Source of the DNA: a virus | Virus record (IMG/VR): IMGVR_UViG_3300021440_000125 | Span: 1 to 22,895 of that record | DNA length: 22,895 nucleotides | Strand: one strand, 5' to 3' | Part shown: positions 1 to 13,352 of the stretch, piece after piece | Layout: each line of letters begins with the position of its first letter | Position numbering within the stretch: the stretch's first letter is position 1 | Position numbers and translations under genes: made by a program | The notes under the pieces: generated by a model | What the model saw: only the letters and a program-made list of their open reading frames with translations | Told to the model about the DNA's origin: nothing | The model's database searches: none

Positions 1-47
1 GATGGGGTCGTGACGACACTGACCCCTACCCGAAAGGAACAAAATGA
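1..47 (+). CDS. C-terminal end of an upstream Imm5-like array member (partial)
   Basis: Only the last 14 codons are in the window, read from position 3 to the TGA at 45-47. The visible end is WGRDDTDPYPKGTK. The last eight residues, DPYPKGTK, are identical to the end of the gene that stops at 1380 and nearly identical to the end of the one that stops at 703. The TGA overlaps the ATG of the next gene in an ATGA junction, as at the following two junctions. I infer that this is a third member of the same tandem family lying upstream. An unrelated gene that has acquired the same 3' end is the alternative. Confidence 0.6.
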   Translation, partial: WGRDDTDPYPKGTK

Positions 48-703
48 AAACAACGCTAGCGAAGATTCGCGCAGCAAGTCCATGCCCTGACGGCTGGGAG
101 AAGCTGTTGCGCCATTTGGGAAAGACCGGGGCTGATGATGAGCCGCTGAGCCTAGCAACCGTTCTTGATAGCAATGGTCTGACAGACGCTACTTGGTGCT
201 TACGAGCTGTGAATGGCTACAACCGGGAAAAGCGACTTTTCGCCGTGTGGTGCGTTCGCCAGGTGCAGCACCTCATGCCTGACAAGCGAAGCATCGATGC
301 GCTGGACGTAGCCGAGCGATACGCCAATGGCGAGGCGACGATAGATGAGCTTGTCGCAGCCCGCGACGCCGCCGCCTATGCCGCCGACCACGACACCGCC
401 AACGCCGCCGCCAACGCCGCCGCCTACGTCGCCTACGACACCGCCAACGCCGCCGCCCACGCCGTCTACGACACCCAAACCGCCGCCGCCTACGTCGCCT
501 ACGACACCCAAACCGCCGCCCACGCCGCCGCATCCGCCGCCGCCGCAGCATCCGACTACAGAGTGATCTTCGCCGCAGACGAACGCGGTAGCGACTACAA
601 AGTGATCTTCGCCGCCGCCCGAGCAGCACAAGCCGCTGAGCTTAGCCGCGTGATCGCCTGTATCGACGCCGGACAAGACCCCTACCCGAAAGTCACGAAA
701 TGA
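44..703 (+). CDS. Imm5-like putative immunity protein with Ala-rich C-terminal tract (copy 1)
   Basis: This 219-residue protein has a conserved N-terminal part (about residues 1-110) with the segments SPCPDGWEKLLRHLGKT, REKRLFAVWCVRQVQHLMPD and ALDVAERYANGEAT. I recognise these from phage and bacterial proteins annotated as Imm5-like or putative immunity proteins; their role in phages is unknown. Residues 107-190 are an alanine-rich helical tract built from units such as YDTANAAA and YDTQTAAA, ending in a near-perfect 13-residue repeat (SDYRVIFAA / SDYKVIFAA). The end is DPYPKVTK. There is no signal peptide or membrane segment. The start is supported by GAAAGGA five bases before the ATG, and by 4-base ATGA overlaps on both sides. 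A long antisense reading frame here is a by-product of the GCC repeats. Gene reality is near certain; function is not established. Confidence 0.85.
   Translation: MKTTLAKIRAASPCPDGWEKLLRHLGKTGADDEPLSLATVLDSNGLTDATWCLRAVNGYNREKRLFAVWCVRQVQHLMPDKRSIDALDVAERYANGEATIDELVAARDAAAYAADHDTANAAANAAAYVAYDTANAAAHAVYDTQTAAAYVAYDTQTAAHAAASAAAAASDYRVIFAADERGSDYKVIFAAARAAQAAELSRVIACIDAGQDPYPKVTK
357..560. repeat. GCC-triplet low-complexity tract in copy 1
   Basis: The tract is dominated by the codons GCC, GAC, TAC and AAC in period three and encodes the Ala-rich part of the first Imm5-like protein. Short units such as CGCCTACGTCGCCTACGACA occur twice (about 420 and 490). It keeps frame throughout, so any gain or loss of units has been in multiples of three. 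The low complexity opens all reading frames on both strands and gives misleading antisense frames. Confidence 0.8.
554..615 (+). repeat. Two 23-base direct repeats, 39-base period
   Basis: GACTACAGAGTGATCTTCGC begins at 554 and GACTACAAAGTGATCTTCGC at 593. Each unit extends three more identical bases and they differ at one base. The 39-base period equals 13 codons, so this is an in-frame duplication inside copy 1 that doubles the DYR/KVIFAA segment. Copy 2 has no equivalent, so the duplication happened after the two genes separated, or was lost from copy 2. Confidence 0.8.
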
Positions 704-1380
704 AAACAACGCTAGCGAAGATTCGTAAAGAAAGCCCCTGCCCTGACGGATGGCAGAAGCTGCGGCGCCACTTGGGAAAGACCAAGGCTGATGACGAACC
801 GCTGAGCCTGGAGGTTGTTCTAGACAGCAACGGCGTGCGAGACACAATCTGGTGTTTACGCGCCGTGGATGGCTACGATCGCGAGAAGCGACTTTTCGCC
901 GTGTGGTCCATCCGCCAGGTGCAGCACCTCATGCCTGACCAGCGATGCATCGAGGCGCTGGACGTGGCCGAGCGCTTCGCCAATGGCGAGGCGACGATAG
1001 ATGAGCTTGATGCGGCCCGCGACGCCGCCTACGCCGCCGCCGCCGACGCCGCCGCCGACGCCGCATACGCTGCCTCCCATGTCGCCTACTGCGTCGCCCA
1101 CGAAACCGCCGTCGCCGCCGCCCACGCCGCCGCTGCCAACGCCGCTGCCCATGCCGCCAACGCCGCCGCCTACGTCGCCGACCACGACACCGCCAACGTC
1201 GCCAACGTCGCCTACGACACCGCCAACGCCTCCGCCTACGTCGCCGCCCAAACCGCCGACGCCCAAACCGCCTACGAGGTCGCTTGGGACGCTGCCCGAG
1301 CCGCCCAAACCGCTGAGCTGCGCCGCGTGGTTGTCTGTATCGAAGCTGGCCAAGATCCCTACCCGAAAGGAACGAAATGA
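700..1380 (+). CDS. Imm5-like putative immunity protein with Ala-rich C-terminal tract (copy 2)
   Basis: This 226-residue protein is a paralogue of the preceding gene. The first 26 bases of the two genes are identical, the N-terminal 110 residues match closely (SPCPDGWQKLRRHLGKT, REKRLFAVWSIRQVQHLMPD, ANGEATIDEL), and both end in QDPYPK plus three residues. The Ala-rich tract (residues 107-210) has a different unit order, with YAAAADAAADAAYAA at its start and DHDTANVANVAYDTANA later, so tracts evolve faster than the domain. The ATG overlaps the previous stop (ATGA, 700-703). The usual ribosome site is altered here (GAAAGTC in place of GAAAGGA), so translation probably depends on coupling to copy 1. 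Function unknown, as for copy 1. Confidence 0.85.
   Translation: MKTTLAKIRKESPCPDGWQKLRRHLGKTKADDEPLSLEVVLDSNGVRDTIWCLRAVDGYDREKRLFAVWSIRQVQHLMPDQRCIEALDVAERFANGEATIDELDAARDAAYAAAADAAADAAYAASHVAYCVAHETAVAAAHAAAANAAAHAANAAAYVADHDTANVANVAYDTANASAYVAAQTADAQTAYEVAWDAARAAQTAELRRVVVCIEAGQDPYPKGTK
1017..1300. repeat. GCC-triplet low-complexity tract in copy 2
   Basis: This is the counterpart of the tract in copy 1, made mostly of GCC with interspersed GAC, TAC, AAC, CAC and GTC codons in strict period three. It is longer than in copy 1 and arranged differently, though both contain the YVADHDTAN/YVAYDTAN type of unit. It may be a site of strand slippage or of recombination between the two genes. Confidence 0.75.
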
Positions 1381-1625
1381 TTTTGCAAGCAACCCAAGAC
1401 TGTTTGATCGTCCGACCTGACCTTGAAAAACACGAGCTTTTCGTGCTGCTGCGACAGAAACAGACGGGTACGGGCACCGTGATTTCTGTTGGCCCTGACG
1501 CCACAGATGTTAAAGTCGGTGATCGGGTGCTGTTTGGTGATTCCATCGGTCAAGACTTGCAATGGCAGGGTGAACACCTGCTCGTGATGCGGGAGGCCCA
1601 CACCCTCGGAGTATTTGACGCATGA
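1377..1625 (+). CDS. GroES-like co-chaperonin
   Basis: This 82-residue protein follows the GroES (Cpn10) pattern: an N-terminal strand CLIVRPDLEK, a short loop region (residues about 17-30, containing LFVLLR) where GroES has its mobile loop, then TGTVISVGPDATDVKVGDRV with the typical GxVxxVGP and VKxGDRVLF signatures, and a C-terminal EHLLVMREAHTLGVFD matching the yxxxxExDILAV end. GroES is usually about 97 residues, and the missing part lies mainly in the roof hairpin. GroES caps GroEL; phage versions such as T4 gp31 adapt the host chaperonin to fold the phage coat protein. Here it sits in an ATGA-overlap chain between the Imm5-like array and the portal gene, with GAAAGGA before its start. 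Folding the P22-type coat encoded at 8499 is the likely job, by inference. Confidence 0.85.
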   Translation: MILQATQDCLIVRPDLEKHELFVLLRQKQTGTGTVISVGPDATDVKVGDRVLFGDSIGQDLQWQGEHLLVMREAHTLGVFDA

Positions 1626-3808
1626 AAGACAACATCGGAATCGTGGCCGCAGCGAATGTGGCAAAAAACGGCCCGTATCCGTCAAAAGGCGGTTCCGAGG
1701 ACATTCTGGCCATCGCCCGGTCTCGCATGACAATGGCGATCTCGGCCATGTCTGAGACCCGCGAGAGCGAACTCGATGACCTGCGCTTCTACGCAGGCTC
1801 CCCGGACAACCAGTGGCAGTGGCCCGCTGACGTGCTCCAGACTCGTAGCGCGGTTCAAGGTCAGACCATCAACGCCCGCCCCACGCTGACCATTAACAAG
1901 CTACCACAGCACGTCAAGCAGATCACCAACGAGCAGCGGATGAACCGCCCCAGTATCAAGGTGATCCCGGCTGATGACGAAGGCGATGTCGAGGTGGCCG
2001 AGGTCTACAGCGGTGTGATCCGCCACATTGAGTACATCTCCGACGCAGACGTGGCCTATGACACTGCCTGTGAGAACCAGGTCTCCTACGGTGAAGGCTA
2101 CGTCCGTCTGCTGACCGAGTATTGCGACGAGGCCACGTTCGATCAGGACATCAAGATCGGGCGCATCCGCAACAGCTTCTCGGTTTACATGGACCCGCTG
2201 ATTCAAGACCCCACCGGTGCCGATGCCCGCTGGTGCTTCATCACTGAGGACATGACCAAGGCTGAGTACGAGCGGGTGTACCCGGACGCTGCGCCCATCA
2301 CGACCCTGATGTCGCTTGGCGTGGGCGATCAGTCAATCAGCAACTGGATTAGCGAAAATACGGTTCGGATCGCCGAATACTTCTACATTGACCACGACAA
2401 GGCTACGCTGAACCTATACCCCGGTAACGTGACTGCGTTTGACGGCACTCCCGAAGACAAGCAGCTTCGGATGATGTTCATCAAACCCCTGCGCCAGCGT
2501 CAGTCCGACCGCAAGAAAGTCAAGTGGTGTAAGACCAACGGCTACGAGATTCTTGAAGAACGCGAGTGGGCTGGTCAGTACATCCCCGTGGTGCGTGTGG
2601 TCGGTAATGAGTTCGAGGTCGATGGTCGCCTGTACGTGTCGGGGTTGGTGCGCAACGCCAAGGACGCCCAGCGCATGTACAACTACTGGGTATCGCAGGA
2701 AGCCGAGATGCTGGCGCTGGCCCCCAAAGCCCCGTTCATCGGCTACGGCGGCCAGTTCGAGGGGTATGAAACCCAATGGAAGACTGCCAACACCCAGAAC
2801 TGGCCGTATTTGGAGGTAAACCCGGACGTTACGGATGGTCAAGGTAGCGTCTTGCCCCTACCCCAGCGGGCCCAGCCTCCGATGGCGTCCAGCGGCCTTT
2901 TGCAAGCTAAGGCGGGGGCATCTGAGGACATCAAGTCAGCTACTGGTCAGTACAACGCTTCGCTGGGCATGACCAGCAATGAGCGTTCTGGTAAGGCAAT
3001 CCTTGCGCGTCAGCGTGAGGGCGACGTGGGAACCTATCACTATGTGGATAATCTGGCTCGTGCTATTCGCCATGTGGGTCGTCAGTTGGTGGATCTGATC
3101 CCCAAGATTTACGATACCGAGCGGATCGCTCGTATCATTGGCGAAGACGGCGGACCATCGACCGTCAAAATGAACCCGATGCAGCAGGAACCGGTCAAGA
3201 AGATCGTGAACCAAGAAGGCGTCGTGATCGACAAAATCTACAACCCGGCTGTCGGCAAGTACGACGTGCGCGTTGTCACCGGCCCCGGCTACGCCACTAA
3301 GCGTCAGGAAGCCCTTGAGTCGATGGCCCAACTGCTGCAAGGTAACCCGCAACTGTGGAGCGTGGCCGGTGACCTATTCGTCAAGAACATGGATTGGCCT
3401 GGTGCCCAAGAACTCGCCAAGCGGTTTCAGAAGACCCTTGACCCCAAGGTGTTGGCCGACGAGGACAACCCGGCTCTGGTGGCAGCGAATCAGCAAATGG
3501 AGCAGATGGCTCAGCAGATGCAGGTCATGCAAGCCATGCTGGAGAACGTGCAGCAGAGCATGGAAGCCAAAGAACTTGCCATCAAGGAGTTCGAGGCCGA
3601 GGTCAAGGCGTACAGCGCCGAGACCCAGCGCATCAGTGCTATGCAGGCCAGCATGACCCCCGAGCAGATTCAGGATATTGTGATGGGTACCATTGCGGCT
3701 GCGGTGGACACTGGCGATCTGGTGGCCGGCACGCATGGTGTGCGCGAGACTCCACAAATGGAAGCAATGGAAGCACCCGACCAAGGAGAGATGAATGGGA
3801 TGCGCTGA
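1622..3808 (+). CDS. Portal protein, P22 gp1 type
   Basis: This 728-residue protein matches the P22-type portal in length (P22 gp1 is 725) and in typical segments: MAISAMSETRESELDDLRFY near the N-terminus, TRSAVQGQTINARPTLTINK, a block with RQREGDVGTYHYVDNLARAI, and a long Gln/Met/Glu-rich C-terminal helix (about residues 615-690) corresponding to the P22 barrel. The portal forms the twelve-subunit ring at one head vertex through which DNA is packaged and ejected, and it anchors the tail. The start overlaps the groES stop (ATGA). The gene lies before the scaffold and coat genes as in P22, but a tailspike block intervenes. Terminase genes are expected upstream and are not visible. Confidence 0.93.
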   Translation: MKDNIGIVAAANVAKNGPYPSKGGSEDILAIARSRMTMAISAMSETRESELDDLRFYAGSPDNQWQWPADVLQTRSAVQGQTINARPTLTINKLPQHVKQITNEQRMNRPSIKVIPADDEGDVEVAEVYSGVIRHIEYISDADVAYDTACENQVSYGEGYVRLLTEYCDEATFDQDIKIGRIRNSFSVYMDPLIQDPTGADARWCFITEDMTKAEYERVYPDAAPITTLMSLGVGDQSISNWISENTVRIAEYFYIDHDKATLNLYPGNVTAFDGTPEDKQLRMMFIKPLRQRQSDRKKVKWCKTNGYEILEEREWAGQYIPVVRVVGNEFEVDGRLYVSGLVRNAKDAQRMYNYWVSQEAEMLALAPKAPFIGYGGQFEGYETQWKTANTQNWPYLEVNPDVTDGQGSVLPLPQRAQPPMASSGLLQAKAGASEDIKSATGQYNASLGMTSNERSGKAILARQREGDVGTYHYVDNLARAIRHVGRQLVDLIPKIYDTERIARIIGEDGGPSTVKMNPMQQEPVKKIVNQEGVVIDKIYNPAVGKYDVRVVTGPGYATKRQEALESMAQLLQGNPQLWSVAGDLFVKNMDWPGAQELAKRFQKTLDPKVLADEDNPALVAANQQMEQMAQQMQVMQAMLENVQQSMEAKELAIKEFEAEVKAYSAETQRISAMQASMTPEQIQDIVMGTIAAAVDTGDLVAGTHGVRETPQMEAMEAPDQGEMNGMR

Positions 3809-3841
3809 TTTCGTGGGCGCGTTGTTCTTGGCGCGGCATTC

Positions 3842-3882
3842 CGGCTCCTCCCCCAAGCTAAATTTCCTCGCATAAGGAGCCG
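3842..3882 (+). promoter_or_regulatory. Inverted repeat enclosing the tailspike ribosome binding site
   Basis: CGGCTCCT (3842-3849) is the exact reverse complement of AGGAGCCG (3875-3882), with a 25-base loop. The right arm contains the AAGGAG ribosome binding site of the gene starting at 3885. If the mRNA folds this way the site is paired, which would lower translation. It lies in the only gap larger than 70 bases in the late operon. It has no U-run, so a terminator is less likely. Confidence 0.5.
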
Positions 3883-3884
3883 AA

Positions 3885-5828
3885 ATGACGGTCAATCTTT
3901 CCATGTTGGCAGGGGCGGGCGCTCAATTTTTTGATAGCAACGGTACCCCATTGACCGGCGGCAAGTTGTACAGCTACGCATCCGGTACTACTACGCAGCA
4001 AACCACGTACACCACTAACGCGGGCAATGTGGCCCACGCAAACCCTATCGTTCTTGATTCGGCGGGGCGCGTGTCAAATGGGGGCGAGATTTGGCTTACT
4101 GACGCGGTTAGCTACAAATTTGTACTGAAAAATTCATCGGATGTGACGATTGCCACATACGACAATATCACGGGTAACGGCAGTGGTATTTACGATGACG
4201 TTTTTGTTCGGTTAGCACAGCCCAATGGTTCATCACTTATCGGCTTTTTGCAGTCAGGGACAGGCACGGCTGCCACTACGGTCCAGGTAAAGCTGCGAGA
4301 GAGCTTGAGTGTGTTGGATTTTGGCGCTGTAGGCGATGGCGTCACGAATGACACAGCAGCTTTTGCCAATGCAATCGCAGAAGCATGGACGACGGGTAAA
4401 TCTGTTTACGTCCCTGCTGGAGATTACAAAGCAAAAATCACAATTCCTCCCTCCAGTGTTGGCGAATATCGCGGCGATGTTTTCATCATTTATGGGGACG
4501 GCGCGGCATCGGGTTTTCTTGATAACCCGTCCATTAATGGAACCAGAATTACTTCGCCCGACACTGACCCCACATTCAGGTTTGACAATACGCTTGGCCC
4601 ATCAGCCGCAGCAAGTAATACTTACCGCATTCGCAACATACGTTTTCAAGGTGACAGTAGCAACCCTGTTATGTCGCTAGATCGTTTTTCTGGCGACTAT
4701 TCTACTATTGAAGAATGTGAAATTCGCCAAAAAGGGTCAGGAGACGGGATTTATATCGAACATGGCTATGCGGCAACAATTCGCAACTGTTATGTGATGA
4801 ATGACGATTTGGTTGCTCTTCCTGGCACTGTTAGAACTGGAACGGCGGTAAGCGTTAGCGCAACCTCTACCTTATCCGGCGGACTATTGCGTTTTGAGCA
4901 CGTAACTACCCGAGGGTTCGCTACAGGTTTTGTCATTGGTGGGGCTGGCGCACCCCCTGCCCCAAGTAGTTTGTCAACTTTGCTGGAGCAGTGCGAATGT
5001 TCTACTGTGACGAATGGCATCGTTGTTGGCACAGGCGTTCGCAAGACAATCATCAACGATTGTTACTTTGAAGGCGTTGAGAACACAGTTGTTTATGACA
5101 GAGGCACGTCAACCACTGTCAGCAATTCGTTCTTTTTCGGTACATCGACCACTTGTTTTGCCACCGGTATTCGCAGCACAGATGCTACGTATGGCAACGT
5201 GTATTTTGCCAATGAGATGCAACTGAGCCATGCTGGCACAATCGGTATCGATCTTTACACCGATGGCGATGCGAATGGTCGGTCGAAGGTTGTGCGCGAC
5301 AATTTCATCTACAACAACAGCGCATCAGCGGCGAACATTAACGGTGTCAGGCTGACTGGCTCTAACCCAACAGCTACCGTTCAAGGCAATATCTTTCGCC
5401 CTCGTAGAGCATGGGCTGGCACGAGTACACTGAAAATCAATGACCTTACCACGGGCGTAAACACGGGCATTGTTCCGCTGACCGATTCTCTAAACGAGTT
5501 CCCGTTGTATTCCAACATCGGGATTTCATTAGGGAATGGTGGGGTAATCAATGAGTCGGCTGTTGCCGCCGGTGTTCTGGCAATGGGCGCTGCGTCATTT
5601 GTTGACTTTGCCCCCACCGTCGCAACGAATGTCACGCAGTTGAGCATCAACGGTGTCAGCGGACGTATTGTCTTGATCACATGCAACGCAAACGTGACCT
5701 TGCAGAACGGCCCTTACATGGTGCTGGCTGGCGGCGCAGACTTCACTGGGGGCGGTCAAATTCTTTTGAATGTCCGGGTCTTGGGTGGTGTTGTGTACGC
5801 CTACGAAATCTCTAGGGCGGTATTCTGA
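3885..5828 (+). CDS. Tailspike/tail fibre with pectate-lyase (beta-helix) domain
   Basis: This 647-residue protein has an N-terminal virion-binding region (about residues 1-100; QFFDSNGTPLTGGKLYSYAS, IVLDSAGRVSNGGEIWLTDA) of a type common in short-tailed phage fibres. A linker follows, then the start of a right-handed beta-helix with the hallmark SVLDFGAVGDGVTNDTAAF (about residues 141-160) of the pectate-lyase superfamily. Helix coils with EECEIRQKG, IRNCYVMND and INDCYFEG run to about residue 520, then a C-terminal beta region. Such spikes bind and often cleave surface polysaccharide. AAGGAG precedes the ATG. The stop overlaps the next start (TGATG). The gene is visibly more AT-rich than its neighbours, which fits exchange of receptor-binding domains. 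The substrate cannot be predicted. Confidence 0.88.
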   Translation: MTVNLSMLAGAGAQFFDSNGTPLTGGKLYSYASGTTTQQTTYTTNAGNVAHANPIVLDSAGRVSNGGEIWLTDAVSYKFVLKNSSDVTIATYDNITGNGSGIYDDVFVRLAQPNGSSLIGFLQSGTGTAATTVQVKLRESLSVLDFGAVGDGVTNDTAAFANAIAEAWTTGKSVYVPAGDYKAKITIPPSSVGEYRGDVFIIYGDGAASGFLDNPSINGTRITSPDTDPTFRFDNTLGPSAAASNTYRIRNIRFQGDSSNPVMSLDRFSGDYSTIEECEIRQKGSGDGIYIEHGYAATIRNCYVMNDDLVALPGTVRTGTAVSVSATSTLSGGLLRFEHVTTRGFATGFVIGGAGAPPAPSSLSTLLEQCECSTVTNGIVVGTGVRKTIINDCYFEGVENTVVYDRGTSTTVSNSFFFGTSTTCFATGIRSTDATYGNVYFANEMQLSHAGTIGIDLYTDGDANGRSKVVRDNFIYNNSASAANINGVRLTGSNPTATVQGNIFRPRRAWAGTSTLKINDLTTGVNTGIVPLTDSLNEFPLYSNIGISLGNGGVINESAVAAGVLAMGAASFVDFAPTVATNVTQLSINGVSGRIVLITCNANVTLQNGPYMVLAGGADFTGGGQILLNVRVLGGVVYAYEISRAVF

Positions 5829-11168: not shown

Positions 11169-12601
11169 TGAAGACCCCGATCCTCGGTTCCTCCTACGTC
11201 GCTCGCAGCGTCAATGCTGCGGACGCACGCATGGTCAATCTGTTCCCTGAGATCATCCCAGAGGGGGGCAAAGAGCCAGCGTTTTTGAACCGCGCACCGG
11301 GCCTCAAGTTAAAGGTATCCGTGGGCATCGGGCCGATTCGGGGCATGTGGGAGTTCAACGACAACCTGTACGTGGTCAGCCGCGACAAGTTGTACAAGGT
11401 GGACTCCACCTACGCAGTGACCACGCTGGGCACCGTGGCGGGCACCAGTGGTCCAGTCAGCATGGCCGACAACGGCACTCAGTTGTTCGTGGCTTGCAAC
11501 GGTCCCGGCTACATATACAACGCCACGACCAACGCCTTCGCCCAAATCACGGACAGTGATTTTCCGGGCGCGGTGACCGTGACCTACCTTGATGGGTATT
11601 TCGTATTCAACGAGCCCAATAGCCAGAAGATTTGGGTCACCGGATTGCTGGATGGTCTGAGCGTAGACCCGTTGGACTTCGCCAGCGCCGAAGGCTCCCC
11701 GGACGGTGTGGTTGGCATCATTGCGGACCATCGGGAAGTCTGGGTGTTTGGCACCAACTCGGTCGAGGTTTGGTACAACAGCGGCAACGCAGACTTCCCC
11801 CTGTCGCGCATCCAGGGTGCGTACAACGAACTGGGATGTGCTGCCCCGTACTCAATTGCCAAGATGGACAACGGCCTGTTCTGGCTGGGCAAAGATGCCC
11901 GAGGCCAGGGCATCGTCTACCGGGCCAACGGCTACACCGGCCAGCGCGTCTCGACCCATGCTGTTGAGTGGCAAATCCAGCAGTACGACAACATGTCGGA
12001 CGCCATCGGGTACACATACCAACAGGACGGCCACAGCTTCTACGTACTGATCTTTCCGCAGGCCGACACGACATGGGTCTATGACGCGGCAACGCAAGCA
12101 TGGCACGAGCGGGGCGGGTTTACCAACGGTGAGTTCACCCGTCACCGCAGCAACTGCCAAGCATTCTTCCAAGGCGATGTATTGGTGGGTGACTACCAAA
12201 ACGCCAATGTTTACGCATTCGACCTTGAGAACTACTCGGACAACGGCAGCATCCAGAAGTGGCTTCGGTCATGGAGGGCGCTGCCCACCGACCAGAACAA
12301 CCTTAAACGCACCGCGCAACACAGCCTTCAGCTTGATCTGGAGACAGGCGTGGGTTTGACCCTTGGCCAAGGCAGTGACCCTCAAGTCATGCTGCGCTGG
12401 TCTGACGATGGCGGGCACACATGGTCCAGCGAGAAATGGGTCAGCATCGGTAAGATCGGCGAATACTACCGCCGCGCTATCTGGCGTCGTCTGGGGATGA
12501 CGATGAAAATCCGCGACCGTGTGTATGAGGTCAGCGGCACCGACCCCGTGAAGATTGCTATTGTGGGCGCGGAACTACTCGTGAGCCCGACGAATGCCTA
12601 A
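11168..12601 (+). CDS. Tail hub / packaged DNA stabilisation protein, P22 gp10-like
   Basis: This 477-residue protein (P22 gp10 is 472) has the characteristic opening MKTPILGSSYVARSVNAADA then MVNLFPEIIPEGG, LNRAPGLK and IGPIRGMWEFNDNLYVVSRD. The body reads as a beta-propeller-like series with NSVEVWYNSGNADFPLSRIQ, FWLGKDARGQGIVYR and FLVG-like turns, ending RDRVYEVSGTDPVKI. gp10 forms the hexameric hub between gp4 and the needle and helps keep packaged DNA in. It overlaps the gp4-like stop by one base and the next gene by eight bases. Assignment is firm. Confidence 0.9.
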   Translation: MKTPILGSSYVARSVNAADARMVNLFPEIIPEGGKEPAFLNRAPGLKLKVSVGIGPIRGMWEFNDNLYVVSRDKLYKVDSTYAVTTLGTVAGTSGPVSMADNGTQLFVACNGPGYIYNATTNAFAQITDSDFPGAVTVTYLDGYFVFNEPNSQKIWVTGLLDGLSVDPLDFASAEGSPDGVVGIIADHREVWVFGTNSVEVWYNSGNADFPLSRIQGAYNELGCAAPYSIAKMDNGLFWLGKDARGQGIVYRANGYTGQRVSTHAVEWQIQQYDNMSDAIGYTYQQDGHSFYVLIFPQADTTWVYDAATQAWHERGGFTNGEFTRHRSNCQAFFQGDVLVGDYQNANVYAFDLENYSDNGSIQKWLRSWRALPTDQNNLKRTAQHSLQLDLETGVGLTLGQGSDPQVMLRWSDDGGHTWSSEKWVSIGKIGEYYRRAIWRRLGMTMKIRDRVYEVSGTDPVKIAIVGAELLVSPTNA

Positions 12602-13352
12602 CCCGGTCAACGTACCAATCACGCCACCACGGGTCGCGTTTATTGACCCGCGATCGGGCACAGTCTCGCGTGAATGGTATTTGTTTTTCCTGTCCTTGTT
12701 TCAGTCACAGGGCGGCAGCAGCATTTCACTTGACGATGTACAAAAAGGACCACCTGCGCTGACGGTTGACGAGGTCGATCACATTGTCAACAACGCCAGC
12801 GAAAACCTTGCGCCATCGCAAGACGGGCTGTTGGCGCAGACTGCCGAGTTGCAGAAAGAGATGCTGGGGTTGCAATCGACCCCGTCGCAAAATGATCTGT
12901 TGGCGCAGAATGCCGAGTTGCAAAAACAGATTCAAGCGTTGCAATCGGCCCCGTCGCAAAATGATCTGTTGGACCAGATTGCCGAATTGCAAAAACAGAT
13001 TCAAGCGTTGCAGGTCGCCCCGCAGTTCGATGTTGGTGTGGTCACTGCGGCGATTGCTGGATTGAGGTCAGCCCCGGCGACCAAGACTACCGACTTCACA
13101 GTTGCTGGCAATGAGACTTGGTTGATCAGCAACAAGTCCGGTTCGACTTGCACCGCGACGTTGCCCAGCGCCAGCACCAATGTTGGCCGGGTCCTGCATT
13201 TCCAGAATTACCAAGCCCAAACCCTCGTGTCAGCTTCGGTTAATGTGGTGCCGCTGGCTGGTGGTGCTGCCACGACGGCCATCTTGCCAGCCGTGGTCGG
13301 TGCAAACGCCACCTTGGTTTCCGATGGCACAAATTGGATAATGACGCAGTAG
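12594..13352 (+). CDS. Needle-like tail protein with coiled-coil repeats
   Basis: This 252-residue protein occupies the P22 gp26 (tail needle, 233 residues) position. It has an N-terminal segment PPRVAFIDPRSGTVSREWYL found in tail-tip proteins of other phages, a central coiled coil with three 23-residue units (residues 74-142, pattern PSQNDLLAQNAELQKQIQAL), and a C-terminal beta domain of about 90 residues (TDFTVAGNETWLISNKSGS to SDGTNWIMTQ). A trimeric fibre is implied. There is no sequence proof of homology to gp26, so a short side fibre is possible. The start overlaps the gp10-like gene by eight bases. Confidence 0.7.
   Translation: MPNPVNVPITPPRVAFIDPRSGTVSREWYLFFLSLFQSQGGSSISLDDVQKGPPALTVDEVDHIVNNASENLAPSQDGLLAQTAELQKEMLGLQSTPSQNDLLAQNAELQKQIQALQSAPSQNDLLDQIAELQKQIQALQVAPQFDVGVVTAAIAGLRSAPATKTTDFTVAGNETWLISNKSGSTCTATLPSASTNVGRVLHFQNYQAQTLVSASVNVVPLAGGAATTAILPAVVGANATLVSDGTNWIMTQ
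12813..13019 (+). repeat. Three 69-base tandem repeats
   Basis: Units at 12813-12881, 12882-12950 and 12951-13019. Units 2 and 3 are almost identical; unit 1 is more diverged. They encode 23-residue coiled-coil segments in the needle-like protein, so the repeat number sets fibre length. 69 is a multiple of three, so unit gain or loss keeps the frame. Confidence 0.9.

Follow-up and report, generated by a model that had tools for sequence, protein, structure and literature searches.

At the left end of the phage DNA that we analysed (a stretch of 22,895 bases, here called the window), we found two overlapping copies of a small accessory gene of the family phrog_18326. We read them, with a probability of about 65%, as a small tandem array whose genes are gained, lost and reshuffled via recombination between direct repeats; the sequences compared do not polarise the direction of these changes, gain or loss.

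The locus between terL and groES

All features described here lie on the plus strand. The window opens with the 3' end of terL, the gene for the terminase large subunit (1–13, ending ...SWMGS, with its TGA stop at 11–13), which is complete in contig L004 (513 aa). Array gene 1 (44–703, 219 aa, phrog_18326 E = 1.6e-40) and array gene 2 (700–1380, 226 aa, E = 1.4e-45) follow, and after them come a groES-like co-chaperonin gene (1377–1625, 82 aa; Pfam Cpn10 E = 2.9e-07, 30.8 bits with a cut-off of 21.1) and a P22-like portal protein gene (1622–3808; PF16510 E = 1.3e-181). Genes 1 and 2 overlap by ATGA and their products end in DPYPKVTK and DPYPKGTK, respectively, and we confirm the description in an earlier note on this DNA of two consecutive overlapping genes directly 5' of the groES-like and portal genes. 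The third, partial array member that the note had placed upstream, ending at position 47, is absent: the near-identical contig L004 has terL as the upstream gene, and the frame in question consists of 44 open codons that run out of frame within terL.

Each array gene encodes a conserved helical head (residues 1–105 in gene 1, 44–358, as seen in alignments; 700–1014 in gene 2) followed by a hypervariable Ala-rich tract. The gene 1 tract (359–630) stands out in tract statistics and contains 12-, 33- and 45-nt internal repeats found with TRF. For gene 2, AlphaFold (AF2) predicts the head with a mean pLDDT of 96.6 (87.8 for the entire protein) and two long helices at residues 100–158 and 168–215 (tract at 1015–1302). 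Elsewhere in the window, a gene at 12594–13352 has near-exact internal repeats (..PSQNDLLAQNAELQKQIQALQSAPSQNDLLDQIAELQKQIQALQ..) and encodes another tandem-repeat coiled-coil-like protein of this phage.

Repeats at the array boundaries

The exact sequence CCCTACCCGAAAGGAACNAAATGA, which we call J, is found at 24–47 and 1357–1380, and a third occurrence with two mismatches lies at 680–703, all three where the earlier note had placed them. The repeated unit starts at 21, which makes it a 27-bp direct repeat covering the last eight codons of the preceding gene. J has an SD-like AAGGA five bases 5' of the ATG and precedes three starts, which supports the proposal that the repeated unit contains a ribosome site and a start codon. 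With up to three mismatches allowed, the core of J has no further site in the window, none of 100 dinucleotide shuffles of the window matched J, and J was confined to array boundaries both in the window itself and across the four contigs from this phage.

The first boundary repeat, J1 (21–47), lies in the non-coding spacer between terL and gene 1, outside any real ORF, and carries the SD-like AAGGA and the gene 1 start codon, while in J3 (1354–1380) the gene 2 tail is combined with an SD-like AAGGA and the groES-like gene's start codon. J2 (677–703) has GTCAC for GGAAC; its SD-like AAGGA is gone and its ATGA stop-start overlap is retained. Over 680–703 it reads AAAGTCAC as against AAAGGAAC, which leaves gene 2 without the AAGGA that is present before gene 1 and groES, and gene 2 of the window phage may therefore depend on translational coupling. 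In contig L005, unlike in J2 of the window, GGAAC and hence AAGGA are kept at all junctions.

J1, though non-coding, spells DPYPKGTK. Because a DPYP tail is coding in the relative L284, we read this stretch as a leftover gene tail; judging by this one spacer, J1 best reads as a relic of an upstream copy that was lost, or that was partly or never fully imported. At the right edge of the array, the groES start in relatives is AAAAAATGA and J ends in AAATGA, so that six bases are common to the two.

Copy number in the slot behind terL

Contig L004 (35.5 kb) is 99.98% identical to the window across 6041 nt, carries two copies and extends leftward into terL. Contig L005, with near-identical flanks, carries three copies (at 2295, 2945 and 3571) and four J junctions, and its copy 3 is the same sequence as gene 2 of the window, with no changes in the tract and two in the head, both synonymous. 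The terL relatives comprise 243 phage records, and in cousins with terL 79–96% identical and the slot covered there are no family genes between terL and groES or portal. Copy-number variation, which the earlier note had proposed to look for, is therefore present, with three copies in L005, two in the window and L004 and none in the cousins; contigs of the window phage break at the array, and assembly could under-call these numbers. In the relatives that were read, the slot commonly holds a short basic ORF (MPLVKS..., phrog_2423), often with a second small gene. Judged from this comparison, the slot behind terL is a general accessory locus of the window phage's group. Its length in relatives runs from 0 to more than 3 kb, with differing small genes (L188, with 3184 bp from terL to groES; L150, L151, L163 and L165).

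Arrays in other phages

Among about 127 distinct loci we found six independent arrays, those of the window phage, L006 (four genes), L011 (two), L028 (two), L238 (three) and L284 (two); about 122 of the 127 loci are single-copy. In trees of the four arrays tested, copies group by phage, with clade support of 0.999 for the window phage, 0.989 for L028, 0.869 for L011 and 0.516 for L006, and these arrays therefore expanded in place. The copies of the window phage form one clade, as expected from the earlier proposal that its array had expanded where it stands.

Boundary repeats number n + 1 for n genes in the window (3 for 2), L005 (4 for 3), L011 (3 for 2) and L238 (4 for 3). In L011, CAACCAATACAAC is found before, between and after the two genes (0.01 expected in the locus), and in L238 a repeat of about 50 bp occurs four times around three genes; both boundary sequences are unrelated to J. 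In L006, L028 and L284 the boundary similarity is less clean than n + 1, and the end of copy 1 in L028 resembles the end of an unrelated upstream gene. The idea that genes are added or lost as cassettes thus survives once it is modified and generalised, with n + 1 boundary repeats and a non-coding J1 after terL, and without the upstream member. The earlier note had expected the idea to fail if the upstream gene was unrelated; that gene is terL, and the cassettes hold in this other form.

Direct repeats with a score of at least 12 flank 13 of the 90 single-copy family genes as compared to 21 of 699 other genes of the same loci (Fisher p = 3e-5), a comparison that counts the window phage among the 13. 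The start of each control gene was set at its first ATG, and this may make the control less sharp. A search for relics in the flanks of single-copy loci returned mostly low-complexity noise, and two cases, in L085 and L217, look real. Upstream of gp36 in L085 (Burkholderia phage Bcep176), the DNA encodes FTVTLAALRKAGAC, 13 of 14 residues identical to a family gene start, and this segment is likely to be a relic of a lost copy, judged by that match. The apparent relic in L217 is ARAALAEQGEK in the downstream flank.

Several further features were observed in these phages. Upstream of the L011 array there is a 41-bp direct repeat (3906–3946 and 4286–4326, 98%) that ends in CAACGAAT/CAACCAAT, and this end overlaps the first bases of the repeat that bounds the array. 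Contig IMGVR_UViG_3300029982_000034 (L014 and L037) has two family members at two distant places. In L006, several starts at 1317–1860 and 3355–5000 have a common leader of the AAGGGGG(A)AAATTATG type, which looks like a genome-wide start-associated element in that phage.

Recombination and selection among copies

The copies of L005 were typed at the 58 sites that separate genes 1 and 2 of the window. Copy 2 is of gene-2 type up to nt 39 (except for a short stretch from –6 to –2), largely of gene-1 type from nt 51 and again of gene-2 type at its 3' end, and copy 1 carries a 12-site patch of gene-2 type at 85–126. Sites cluster beyond what shuffling gives (p below 1e-4 for copy 2 and p = 0.0004 for copy 1). 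By its site pattern, copy 2 matches the middle gene that a single unequal crossover of copy 1 with copy 2 would produce. The crossovers detected fall within genes (for example, at ORF nt 39–51) and none demonstrably in J, and they give no support to the suggestion that flanks recombine at the DPYPK junction.

In all paralogous pairs permitting an estimate, dN/dS of the heads is 0.04–0.40 (0.20 for genes 1 and 2 of the window). Outside the heads it is mostly 0.7–1.4 and lower in L006 and L011, values that carry the uncertainty of aligning repeats. In L028, the heads differ at 2 sites and the tracts differ widely. Since the heads are under purifying selection, all copies look functional, and these alignments point to a constant head and a fast-changing Ala-rich helical tract. 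The comparison of head and tract also supports the tract variation among copies that the earlier note had described.

The family and its relation to Imm5

The phrog_18326 profile matches both window genes and all 62 aligned family members. The family has 111 members of 129–373 residues, built from a roughly 105-residue head in which many positions are invariant, an Ala-rich tract and a C-terminal cap. The tract is 53% Ala, with peaks of Ala-Ala autocorrelation at 4, 8 and 12 residues. Searches of solved structures (PDB) by sequence and by fold, with the full protein and with the head, found no similar entry.

The window proteins had been called Imm5-like, a name that holds as remote kinship and not as direct membership. 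Against Imm5 (PF14423, gathering cut-off 25 bits), gene 1 scores 13.9 bits and gene 2 has no match, and none of the 62 family members matches at E 0.01 (the best relative, L284, reaches 19.0 bits). Against Imm5_like (PF21805, cut-off 25 bits), the head of gene 1 scores 12.2 bits. Direct Imm5 membership was rejected on these scores. The copies of L284 exceed the Imm5_like cut-off, with 30.8, 28.2 and 26.9 bits, and L284 aligns with gene 2 of the window at 51% in the head (E = 3e-31) and in the tail as well (CIDAGQDPYP in L284, coding). With L284 as the intermediate, the window proteins can fairly be described as remote kin of Imm5_like, below the membership cut-offs. They resemble Imm5 and Imm5_like proteins in having a helical head followed by an Ala-rich helical stretch, and they differ in falling under both cut-offs and in having no toxin partner. 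A fold match in BFVD was obtained to A0A6J5RNF9, annotated 'Imm-5-like domain' (E = 6.6e-3, TM 0.42–0.45). A search for PF14423 in 274 bacterial genomes gave no match, and the controls were equally silent, which makes it uninformative. Matches in PADLOC and NCBIfam were single and weak, probably owing to low complexity, and were set aside.

No toxin gene lies beside the window array, whose neighbours are terL and groES. Among 102 neighbours of other family members, no family is common to more than 4 members and 97 different PHROG families are represented, a diversity too great for assigning a function through guilt by association; several of these neighbours are recombination genes. The literature that we searched on phrog_18326 or on Imm5_like in phages contained no report of function or array behaviour.

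A model for the array and alternative explanations

In T4 under ToxN selection, tifA was amplified at flanking microhomologies of 6–10 bp, one of which is left between the repeats (PMC9391042), and in T6 a similar amplification is driven by SegB (PMC13096335). The T4 dmd-tifA and T6 cases share with the window array a small phage gene present in tandem, a short direct repeat between neighbours and a variable copy number, and by this analogy J is a local instance of the recombination at short direct repeats that amplifies tifA. In contrast to those cases, the window array is natural, belongs to another gene family and has copies old enough for divergence and mosaicism; selection by a defence system belongs to the T4 case, whereas the window array is known from sequence alone. 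A further difference is that its repeat spans the gene end, the ribosome site and the start, which makes each unit precisely one gene. Direct repeats would recombine unequally, first the short ones at gene ends and later the genes themselves, and because of what the boundary repeat spans, each event would add or remove one whole translatable gene, ribosome site and stop-start overlap included. The right edge of the array would have been joined at the AAATGA common to J and the groES start, and the Ala-rich helical hairpin would diversify by slippage and recombination with the head domain held constant.

We consider it improbable that J is instead a start-associated element for translation or regulator binding, of which the DPYPK tail is merely the translation. 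Its SD-like AAGGA five bases from the ATG, before three starts, would suit such a role, and there is a precedent in the start-associated sequences (SAS) that cluster K mycobacteriophages carry (PMC3203893). These are 13 bp long, recur upstream of starts and, like J, place a short repeat with a ribosome site directly before starts. However, SAS are found genome-wide before unrelated genes, whereas J is confined to the array boundaries in the window and the four contigs, for which reason a genome-wide start element was rejected; furthermore, J2 persists without AAGGA, and in L284 the tail codes for protein and can be aligned. An assembly artefact, in which repeats and copies come from misassembled strains, is very improbable. 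Contigs L003 (at 1), L089 (at 5612) and the window (at 1) do have ends that fall in or beside the array, which suggests population variation or repeat-induced assembly breaks, but the separate records of the window and L004 agree across both copies into terL at the 99.98% given above, and the L005 copies are distinct and in frame, with J variants of their own.

Two further alternatives concern why copies are kept. Amplification purely for dosage, with more of the same protein needed and the copy differences neutral, is rather doubtful: tifA of T4 was amplified for dose (PMC9391042) and the heads are conserved here, but a young dosage array is expected to be homogeneous, whereas the window-phage copies have 83.7% DNA identity (leader and head) and the tracts are strongly different in every array, even in L028 with its 2 head differences. 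It is also unlikely that the array is a near-neutral by-product of GC-rich repeats that make the gene prone to duplication, an array without adaptive meaning. The 12-nt-type repeats that make up the tract and the single-copy state of most loci (about 122 of 127) fit such an origin; however, purifying selection on the heads of all paralogous pairs indicates that copies stay functional, additional genes have a genome-size cost in a phage of about 36 kb, and arrays arose independently six times.

Possible function and significance

Given the accessory placement, the lack of fixed neighbours and the recurrent arrays, the most likely role of the array protein is that of an inhibitor of a host toxin. 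We tentatively suggest that it blocks a defence toxin of the host, much as an immunity protein or antitoxin would, and that its gene may be amplified for dose or variety; the window copies lie in the late packaging region, an odd placement for an early counter-defence role. Deaminase and CdiA toxins are the listed targets of Imm5-type immunity proteins, and polyimmunity loci can consist of immunity genes in tandem (PMC3482391). The homogeneous polyimmunity loci of bacteria described there resemble the window array in having tandem paralogs of an immunity-type family in varying number (two, three or none in the window group). In contrast to those loci, the array is on a phage, within a block of packaging genes, with no toxin nearby and with remote kinship to Imm5_like. 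A phage 'polyimmunity' array, in which a constant head and a helical hairpin variable in length and sequence would be duplicated, shuffled and lost as independent units of translation and would provide each lineage with a shifting repertoire of inhibitors directed at variable toxins or defence proteins of the host, is a speculative reading that we regard as unlikely.

Taken together, the recurrent expansion, the constant head and the fast-changing tract point to a conflict between this gene and hosts, which recommends the family for counter-defence screening. Laboratory evolution of T4 had shown that genes can be amplified through short homologies. In natural sister phages and six independent arrays, the sequences carry the marks of such a process: boundary repeats, relics, chimeras and empty slots.
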